DNA of 64,000 nucleotides, taken from contig JAUQXK010000031.1 of assembly GCA_030834695.1 (NCBI GenBank), positions 88,079-152,078 on the forward strand, given 5' to 3'. Within the stretch, counting starts at the first letter, position 1; each line of letters starts with the position of its first letter. The stretch comes from Desulfobacterales bacterium. Its GTDB lineage: Bacteria > Desulfobacterota > Desulfobacteria > Desulfobacterales > SpSt-501. A program made the translations under genes and the position numbers. A model generated the notes under the pieces. That model saw nothing but the letters and a program-made list of their open reading frames with translations. It had not been told where the DNA came from and made no database searches. Shown here one piece after another: positions 44,735 to 48,565 of this stretch.

Positions 44735-45022
44735 ATGAAACAAGAATTGAAGAGGCGTTTGGCAGAAAAATTGTTGGCCGACGATCCTTCAACCGAGCGG
44801 CGTGTGCATCCGGTAGATCGTCGAAAAATGAACACGTTTATTTGCCCTGATAGGAGGTCCGGCCTGGCCGACAGGAGGGCCGACACCTCCGAGCTGATTA
44901 AAAGGTTTTTATTTGGATATAAGCACGAGCGGCGGCTGGCTGCCAGTGACCGCCGCAAACAACATACCTTCATTATGAACGATCGGCGCTCCGGGGTCGC
45001 GGACCGGCGATCGGGTTCCTGA
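44735..45022 (+). CDS. Small basic protein with duplicated DRR motif
   Basis: This is a 95-residue, very arginine-rich protein that I do not recognise. It contains two copies of a unit of about 20 residues: DRRKMNTFICPDRRSGLADR at residues 28-47 and DRRKQHTFIMNDRRSGVADR about 44 residues later. The halves are joined by a short hydrophobic stretch (LIKRFLFGY). The strict conservation between copies argues that it is a real gene, although no ribosome-binding site is visible. It could bind nucleic acid or an anionic surface. It lies 42 bases upstream of the channel gene on the same strand. Confidence 0.6.
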   Translation: MKQELKRRLAEKLLADDPSTERRVHPVDRRKMNTFICPDRRSGLADRRADTSELIKRFLFGYKHERRLAASDRRKQHTFIMNDRRSGVADRRSGS

Positions 45023-45064: not shown

Positions 45065-46177
45065 ATGAAACCCATACAGCCGAACAACAAAGCCCTCCAT
45101 GGAATAGCCCTTGGAATAATTTTCTTGTGGGTTCTCTTGCTTTACCCGGCGACTTCCTTTTCGCAGAATGAGGGCACCCATCCACGGGTTCTGCAAGTGG
45201 GAGTGATAGTCGCTTCACCATTATACATCCAAACAGCCGATGGTCGTTGGGAAGGATTTAGCGTCGAGCTATGGCAGGCTGTGGCTCAACACCTAAACGT
45301 GACATTTGAATTTCGGGAATTTAGCAGCTTGGAGCAATTGTTGGATGCCTTAGCAAAAAGGGAAATAGATGTCTTTCCTTCCTTGCCGGTCGGGGAGCGT
45401 TTTGAATCCGACATGGATTTTAGTCAGTCATATTTAAAATCGGGACTTTCTATTGCAGTACCGGCGGAAGGTGTCGAATCCAGATGGGTCCATGTTTTTG
45501 AGAGTTTCTTTTCAAAGGACGTCTTAAAGGCAATAGGATTGTTGGTGTCATTGTCGATGATAGCCGGAATTATCGTATGGTTATTTGAAAGGCGTAAGAA
45601 CAGTGAAATGTTCGGTGACGGCACTGCCGGGGGGATCGCTCACGGCGTCTGGTGGGCGGTGGTTACAATGACCACGGTGGGTTACGGAGATAAGGCACCC
45701 CGAACAGCGGGTGGGCGCATCATTGCGCTGATTTGGATGATTTTTTCAATTGTTTATATCGCTAGCTTCACCGCCAACATTACTACAGCGCTGACCATGA
45801 AGGAGCTAAGTGGCAAAGTTCGTGGTTTTAATGACCTTTACAATACGCGAGTCGGATCTGTGTCCGGATCGGAAGGATTCGATTTTCTGACCAAACAGGG
45901 AATAACGGTAATTCCCTTTGAAGATATGCAGGAAGGGTTGGCCGCAGTTGCCGGCAGGGTGATCGATGCGTTCGTTCTCAATGAACAGGTACTCAAGCAT
46001 CTGGCAAAGCGAGAGTTCCCCGGCCGAGTGCAGGTTCTGCCTGGAATCTACGACGAATATTTCGTGAGCATGGCCTTACCGCAAGACAGTTCGCTCCGCA
46101 AACCAATAAACAAGGCATTGCTGCAGTTGATGAAAACGAAAAATTGGACTGAGTTGCGCAATCGCTATATACACTGA
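45065..46177 (+). CDS. GluR0-like ligand-gated potassium channel (prokaryotic ionotropic glutamate receptor)
   Basis: This is a 370-residue receptor-channel. After a signal peptide/first helix (about residues 11-32) comes lobe 1 of a periplasmic amino-acid-binding fold (VLQVGVIVASPLYI, GRWEGFSVELWQAV, and Arg112 in PVGERFESDMDFSQSY). A pore module interrupts it: helix at about 154-174, pore loop with the potassium filter TVGYGD at residues 204-209, and helix at about 218-240 ending in SFTANITTALT, which resembles the SYTANLAAFLT of animal glutamate receptors. Lobe 2 follows (VGSVSGSEGFDFL, IDAFVLNEQVLKHL). This order is that of cyanobacterial GluR0. The ligand is unknown. Confidence 0.92.
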   Translation: MKPIQPNNKALHGIALGIIFLWVLLLYPATSFSQNEGTHPRVLQVGVIVASPLYIQTADGRWEGFSVELWQAVAQHLNVTFEFREFSSLEQLLDALAKREIDVFPSLPVGERFESDMDFSQSYLKSGLSIAVPAEGVESRWVHVFESFFSKDVLKAIGLLVSLSMIAGIIVWLFERRKNSEMFGDGTAGGIAHGVWWAVVTMTTVGYGDKAPRTAGGRIIALIWMIFSIVYIASFTANITTALTMKELSGKVRGFNDLYNTRVGSVSGSEGFDFLTKQGITVIPFEDMQEGLAAVAGRVIDAFVLNEQVLKHLAKREFPGRVQVLPGIYDEYFVSMALPQDSSLRKPINKALLQLMKTKNWTELRNRYIH

Positions 46178-47263: not shown

Positions 47264-48565
47264 ATGAAACGTTTCATGCTCATTTCGTGTGTTCTATGCC
47301 TATGCTTAATAGTTGTTACAAACGTATCATCAAATTTTAACAAACCGTTGAGCCTTGTTGAGAAGGGACGAAAGATTTTCTTCAATGAAACTTTCAATGG
47401 TAACGGTAGAACCTGTGGCACCTGTCATCCGGCTGAAAACAATTTTACGATTGACCCAGCATTCATAGCAACTCTGCCACCTAATGATCCCCTCTTTGTA
47501 GCGGAGTTTGTTCCTGCGTTAATGCAAAACTTCGAGAATCCAACATTGATGAGGGAGTTCGGGCTGATACTGGAAAATGTGGATGGGTTTGACGATTTGG
47601 CAAATAAATTTGTCATGCGGGGAGTGCCACAAACTCTATCGCTTAGAACCACCAGTGTTAGTACCCAAGAGGGCAACCGCCTGGGATGGTCAGGTGATGG
47701 TGCTCCCAATGATGGCTCACTTCGATCCTTTGCAATAGGTGCGGTGAGGCAGCATTTTACAAAAACACTGGCTCGTGTTGAGGGAGTGGATTTCCGCTTA
47801 CCTACCAATGAGGAACTTAATGCGTTGGAAGCCTTCCAGCTTTCACTTGGCAGGCAAGCAAATCTGGTATTGCCTTTACCACTTAAAGGCATTGAAGCCC
47901 AGCTTGGCCAAGATTTCTTTCTCAACAGCAAGTGCAATAATTGTCACACGAATGCCGGAGCAGGAGATAACCGTAATTTCAATACGGGCGTAGAGAATCT
48001 GCTCGATAAATCTCAAGATGAAACAGGCGAGCTTATCCCCCCTGATGATGGTTTCGGTACACCTGGTGATGGGGAATTTAACACACCTCCGTTGGTTGAA
48101 GCCGCAGATACCGGGCCATTTTTCCATGATAATTCAATTGGTACTTTGGAAGCTGCTATAGCATTTTTCGCAGGGCCTGCATTTGATGGTTCTCCTTCTG
48201 GCCCTGCCATTTCAATGGATGGCACACAAGTCGCCAATGTTGCCGCATTTTTACGAGTATTAAATTCCTTGGAAAACATTCAACAAAGCATTGATTATTT
48301 ATCCCAAGTGTCGTCAGTGGTTCATAAACCTGTTTTCAATAGGAATATTGACCCAATATTGTTAGCCAAAAATGAAACCAAGGACGCTATCAAAGTCTTA
48401 GTTTGTGCTAATCTCCATTTTGTCGCAGTTAAATATCTGAATAAAGCATTGGCTCTTATAAAAAATGCTGAAAATTCCCGTTTCTTCCAAGTGAAATTAG
48501 CAAGGGAGGCAATCAAGCAATTGGAAAATGCACGGTTTGAATTAGTTGAACCCAACGGAGCCTAA
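47264..48565 (+). CDS. Diheme cytochrome c peroxidase-like protein
   Basis: This is a 433-residue exported protein with a signal peptide (about residues 1-22) and two heme-c motifs, CGTCH at 51-55 and CNNCH at 224-228. Spacing and the sequences RTCGTCHPAENNF and FFLNSKCNNCHTNAGAG fit the MauG/CcpA-type diheme peroxidase family, which is usually shorter (320-350). The extra C-terminal 90 residues (about 340-433) are helical and unassigned. A very strong ribosome-binding site (AAAGGGAGG) precedes the ATG. Codon use is much more AT-rich than in genes outside the island, which suggests acquisition. Confidence 0.83.
   Translation: MKRFMLISCVLCLCLIVVTNVSSNFNKPLSLVEKGRKIFFNETFNGNGRTCGTCHPAENNFTIDPAFIATLPPNDPLFVAEFVPALMQNFENPTLMREFGLILENVDGFDDLANKFVMRGVPQTLSLRTTSVSTQEGNRLGWSGDGAPNDGSLRSFAIGAVRQHFTKTLARVEGVDFRLPTNEELNALEAFQLSLGRQANLVLPLPLKGIEAQLGQDFFLNSKCNNCHTNAGAGDNRNFNTGVENLLDKSQDETGELIPPDDGFGTPGDGEFNTPPLVEAADTGPFFHDNSIGTLEAAIAFFAGPAFDGSPSGPAISMDGTQVANVAAFLRVLNSLENIQQSIDYLSQVSSVVHKPVFNRNIDPILLAKNETKDAIKVLVCANLHFVAVKYLNKALALIKNAENSRFFQVKLAREAIKQLENARFELVEPNGA

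Follow-up and report, generated by a model that had tools for sequence, protein, structure and literature searches.

The gene at positions 45065-46177 (+ strand) of the window, by which we mean the whole 64,000-nucleotide stretch of Desulfobacterales DNA analyzed here, encodes a 370-residue channel of the ionotropic glutamate receptor (iGluR)/GluR0 lineage with a potassium filter, an assignment given by sequence, fold and phylogeny. Lineage and fold place the protein with GluR0, but its ligand-binding residues depart from the published description of the prokaryotic Group 1 receptors. The channel family itself is widespread in bacteria, and the point of interest is the remodeling of the ligand site that is specific to one clade. 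We think it fairly probable that the protein forms an inverted K+ channel of four identical subunits, opened through a periplasmic clamshell whose ligand is not bound in the way glutamate is.

The original prediction of a bacterial iGluR-like potassium channel was borne out by the reading frame, domain order, fold and phylogeny. The open reading frame of this sulfate-reducer-type bacterium is complete, starts with ATG and encodes a predicted ligand-gated K+ channel subunit of the GluR0 lineage. Pfam-A recognized an interrupted SBP_bac_3 domain over residues 45-369 (1.7e-17), within which lie Lig_chan (PF00060; residues 161-262, 2.3e-17, 63.6 bits against a curated cut-off of 30.8) and Ion_trans_2 (residues 190-244, 3.5e-14); SBP_bac_3 and Ion_trans_2 also scored above their curated cut-offs. 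The predicted split of an amino-acid-binding-type domain by a pore was thus recovered. An AlphaFold2 model built from a 29-sequence alignment (mean pLDDT 86.2, pTM 0.61) has helices at residues 151-175, 186-202 and 215-246, corresponding to M1, P and M3. All features described below are on the + strand. A putative signal peptide, whose boundary is approximate, occupies residues 1-34 (45065-45166), where the model has a helix at 8-26 followed by a low-confidence stretch at 31-37, and where the sequence reads as a hydrophobic segment followed by SFSQ. The lobe-1 half of the clamshell, S1 (residues 42-136; 45188-45472), lies within SBP_bac_3 and superposes on the GluR0 ligand cores 2pyy and 1ii5. 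It is followed by M1 (residues 151-175; 45515-45589), the re-entrant P helix and selectivity filter (residues 186-212; 45620-45700), which fall in Ion_trans_2, and the pore-lining M3 helix (residues 215-246; 45707-45802), which is covered by Lig_chan. The lobe-2 half, S2 (residues 250-368; 45812-46168), was delimited by SBP_bac_3 and the 2pyy alignment, and the modeled chain ends with it, so that M4 is absent. Pfam, model and fold therefore agree on the order S1-M1-pore loop-M3-S2 without M4, as in GluR0-type Group 1 receptors. The potassium filter TVGYGD was exactly as predicted (residues 204-209; 45674-45691), matches the (T)VGYGD of Group 1, and is invariant in the clade and nearly so among relatives. 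In the sequence, positively charged residues follow both M1 (RRKN) and the filter (K210, R213 and R218); these would be cytoplasmic if the topology is inverted.

The best solved relative by sequence was the ligand core of Nostoc GluR0 (2pyy; 1.4e-63 with a profile), which was also among the top structural matches (Z 27.2, 2.3 Å over 210 residues), tied with engineered glutamine-binding proteins; the Synechocystis GluR0 core (1ii5) matched at Z 25.5. Foldseek aligned the full chain to LBD-TMD structures of AMPA receptors over about 365 columns (E about 1e-21). The original prediction had itself raised the alternative that the pore is that of an ordinary voltage- or Ca2+-gated K+ channel and became joined to an amino-acid-binding protein by chance, and the pore is indeed matched by Ion_trans_2 and Ion_trans as well. 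However, in more than 100 aligned relatives the pore is nested within the binding domain instead of adjoining it, the Lig_chan score is far over its cut-off, and the whole chain resembles iGluR LBD-TMD structures. Such an insertion is the arrangement of iGluRs and excludes a chance fusion: the Pfam order, the aligned relatives and the whole-chain fold matches refute it, phylogeny also points to the iGluR lineage, and we leave it next to no probability. The M3 helix had been described as close to the animal signature, and its SFTANITTALT is identical to SYTANLAAFLT at 6 of 11 positions, a score of at least 6 that shuffled proteins reached in 7 of 500 trials. Other bacterial relatives are equally close, so the likeness is a feature of the family, and a special closeness of this protein to animal receptors is ruled out.

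The protein falls in a clade of 18 sequences, nearly all of them from Desulfobacterales, with bootstrap/aLRT support of 100/99 in a tree built with the pocket columns left out; a quick tree search recovered the same 18 members with a support of 99. Scores at the level of the clade profile were confined to the order, with 17 matches at E<1e-150 in the search of the order, while the closest match outside it in the search of the phylum was about 1e-112. One clade record, L043, bears the name Desulfomicrobium and is possibly a misnamed metagenome bin.

Total conservation of an S1 Arg, which binds the α-carboxylate, and of an S2 Asp, which binds the α-amino group, has been reported among prokaryotic iGluRs (Ger et al. 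2010, PMC2950845). Equivalences to GluA2 were established by counting from the DFS motif and from sequence alignments, with the numbers R485, 705, T655 and Y732 taken from PMC12226733. The S1 Arg column holds Arg in 91 of 92 relatives but in only 3 of the 18 clade members, the other 15 having F, L, Y, H or N. In the protein studied here, R112 and F113 lie at 45398-45403, with Phe113 in the column of the α-carboxylate Arg (GluA2 R485) and Arg112 one residue earlier. Two observations secure this register: E114 and D118 do not vary within the clade, and in three members (L022, L045 and L046) an Arg stands precisely in that column. In 18/18 clade members, against 0/91 relatives, one residue is missing ahead of the lobe-1 Arg, between D102 and D118. 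The S2 Asp column is D in all 92 relatives, but of the 18 clade members 13 have N there and 5 have D; here it is N306 (45980-45982), in place of the Asp of 2pyy and E705 of GluA2. Glu occupies the column of the Thr of the GluR0 "GST" ligand motif in 14/18 members (E270; 45872-45874, placed by the clade and 2pyy alignments). The pocket Tyr (GluA2 Y732), kept in 86/92 relatives, is found in none of the clade, where V, I or L stands in all 18 (V334; 46064-46066). At position -10, where GluA2 has T480, the Thr has given way to A, P, G or S throughout the clade. Pocket residues Trp62 and Ser269 are kept, and Y332 and S269 are invariant throughout the clade. Since Arg is kept in three members and Asp in five, the pocket has not changed uniformly. 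Of the predicted ligand cleft around Arg112 and a lobe-2 aspartate, the Arg exists, but it is off the Arg column by one residue and the aspartate is Asn306, so the cleft is not canonical. Missing ligand contacts had been named as grounds for giving up the prediction; the changed Arg and Asp positions do count against a conventional ligand, though not against the identity of the channel.

These substitutions also bear on the reading of the protein as an ordinary GluR0-type, amino-acid-gated K+ channel in which Arg112, although off register, and Asn306 still hold the α-carboxylate and α-amino groups of a common amino acid. Position 112 is Arg in 6 of 7 members of the protein's own subclade, and this Arg might still bind a carboxylate, taking over a role; Trp62 and Ser269 are retained, and the overall fold equals that of NpGluR0 with glutamate. 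However, it is Phe113 that holds the Arg column, the Thr, Asp and Tyr contacts are changed too, and relatives almost never depart from Arg and Asp at these two positions. Ordinary amino-acid gating therefore seems unlikely to us, if still worth keeping in mind. The rebuilt pocket instead suggests that the ligand is most likely some other periplasmic solute and not an α-amino acid held in the conventional way.

A clamshell that has become a regulatory remnant without a ligand, on a channel that is constitutive or answers to voltage, tension or a protein partner, would account for the joint loss of several ligand contacts and for the lack of a conserved operon partner. Against this, S1 and S2 are at least as conserved as in relatives, Y332 and S269 do not vary across the clade, and dN/dS is far below 1 (pairwise values of 0.16-0.30, indicating purifying selection). 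Identity within the clade is 0.46 for S1 and 0.51 for S2, compared with 0.42 and 0.36 among relatives, figures that serve only as a rough guide because diversity is greater in the set of relatives. By these sequence measures the ligand domain is not decaying, and we regard a ligand-free clamshell as more doubtful than amino-acid gating.

Returning to a clamshell that responds to an altered ligand, we propose that four subunits would assemble, by analogy with GluR0, into an inverted K+ pore. For GluR0 itself, K+ uptake and channel activity, location in the plasma membrane and inverted topology have been demonstrated (PMC13099474). The source genome holds a single copy of the gene and no second such gene, so the tetramer is probably homomeric, with no canonical partner subunit. 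The periplasmic clamshell of S1 and S2 would close on its ligand and pull on the linkers to M1 and M3, opening the K+-selective pore. Its pocket would be one rebuilt by deletion of a residue before the binding helix, by displacement or loss of the Arg, and by Asn, Glu and Val taking the places of Asp, Thr and Tyr, respectively. Ligand binding would then alter K+ flux, with K+ running down its gradient, and membrane potential, and the channel may take part in sensing osmotic conditions or solutes, a role also proposed for GluR0. Gene context gave no clue to the ligand, since the neighborhoods of 13 loci of clade members had no common partner beyond genes shared by single pairs. A promoter scan found nothing above chance.

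Comparison with known systems places these features in the wider family. GluR0 of Synechocystis PCC 6803 (slr1257; LBD 1ii5) and of Nostoc punctiforme (LBD 2pyy) shares with our protein the S1-M1-P-M3-S2 order, the clamshell fold and the lack of both M4 and an amino-terminal domain. Our protein has a K+-type filter, and GluR0 has K+ channel activity. Our protein differs in lacking the canonical Arg of S1 and Asp of S2, in the one-residue deletion before the Arg helix, and in having E270 and V334. Topology and potassium filter are common to it and to the prokaryotic Group 1 iGluRs (Ger et al. 2010, PMC2950845), but it breaks the Arg/Asp conservation reported for that group and sits in a mainly Desulfobacterales clade. 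The fold of the LBD and of M1-P-M3 is shared with AMPA receptors (GluA2 LBD-TMD), from which it differs in having neither an amino-terminal domain nor M4, and in carrying a K+ filter instead of a Q/R-site pore. Like our protein, insect IRs (PMC2924276) and the epsilon receptors without R485 (GluE2alpha; PMC12226733) have the iGluR architecture with key ligand contacts lost. However, insect IRs belong to an animal iGluR lineage with M4, and ours is a bacterial gene with a K+ filter and no M4; the loss is independent, and the two are analogous, not homologous as a subgroup. We see an even chance that the clade gave up amino-acid recognition and, by stepwise remodeling, fitted its clamshell with a new ligand chemistry, with living intermediates that keep Arg or Asp, as a bacterial counterpart of the insect IRs. 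On the tree, loss of the Arg required three changes within the clade, and a single loss was not rejected (AU p 0.35).

We also examined the distribution of the family. A 2010 survey found 23 prokaryotic iGluRs among 971 genomes (PMC2924276). The supposed rarity of such channels outside cyanobacteria did not hold up: a species-genome scan confirmed at least 571 relatives, the best 80 of which span about a dozen phyla, including Pseudomonadota, Thermodesulfobacteriota, Myxococcota, Planctomycetota, Verrucomicrobiota and Bacteroidota, and 32 of 291 genomes of the bacterium's own class have a relative at E<=1e-20.

The AT-rich surroundings were confirmed, with a GC content of 0.43-0.48 across 45-49 kb compared with about 0.59 for the window (0.482 for the channel gene against 0.588). 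Within the GC-poor stretch, an AT-rich gene at 47264-48565 (GC3 0.38) encodes a secreted protein of the di-haem cytochrome-c-peroxidase/MauG-like type that bears the motifs CGTCH and CNNCH. Upstream of the channel, a small ORF at 44735-45022 has repeated DRRKxxTFIxxDRRSGxADRR motifs and no Pfam match. The suggestion drawn from base composition, that the gene had been acquired, found no support as far as a recent event is concerned. Five of seven congeneric genomes, this one included, carry the gene, the other four copies being 56-74% identical. Two of these orthologues are also GC-poor relative to their surroundings (0.523 against 0.599 and 0.483 against 0.593), and two lie nearer to theirs (0.58-0.60 against 0.63-0.64). 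Recent horizontal acquisition, as judged by GC, was rejected because of this spread of orthologues and their varying GC deficit. The gene tree grouped the five congeners with L021 and L043 (support 100/100), which fits a gene that would have been resident since before the genus diversified. An earlier transfer between genera is possible, since the neighborhoods differ. Viral contigs had no match to the channel protein.

Among other relatives in Desulfobacterales, four sequences of about 730-750 residues (L036, 1492-3723, -; L136, 4100-6343, -; L162, 1498-3696, -; and L163, 1-1974, +, whose 5' end is cut) have a glycine-betaine-type OpuAC domain N-terminal to a complete canonical GluR0-type K+ channel. 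OpuAC matched the full-length fusions at E 7e-49 to 3e-52, and the four cluster in the tree. The added domain recalls the amino-terminal domain that animal receptors carry and hints at a sensing of osmolytes; our literature search found no paper on an OpuAC-GluR0-type channel fusion. In L037 (1-1500), an OpuAC domain lies directly upstream of the channel in another frame, reflecting a frameshift, an assembly error or a split fusion. Two sequences on very long branches, L038 and L041, have the family architecture without the K+ filter (GSTLASGVCFGISL; TSGPIRYYEF), and in L041 the Arg and Asp are also absent. One Desulfobacterales genome (G125) contains five to six GluR0-type channel genes, several of them canonical, one a copy with a remodeled pocket (L024) and one the OpuAC fusion L136.

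GluR0, the characterized bacterial receptor of the family, is described as amino-acid-gated. If our reading is true, a channel that was kept while its grip on amino acids was replaced would mean that a change of ligand within this receptor fold is not something that animals invented. The spread over bacterial phyla revises the view of bacterial glutamate receptors as mostly cyanobacterial. The clade provides a graded set of small proteins in which ligand change in a glutamate-receptor clamshell can be tested and, if the ligand is indeed altered, it parallels, among bacteria, the insect receptors that abandoned glutamate.
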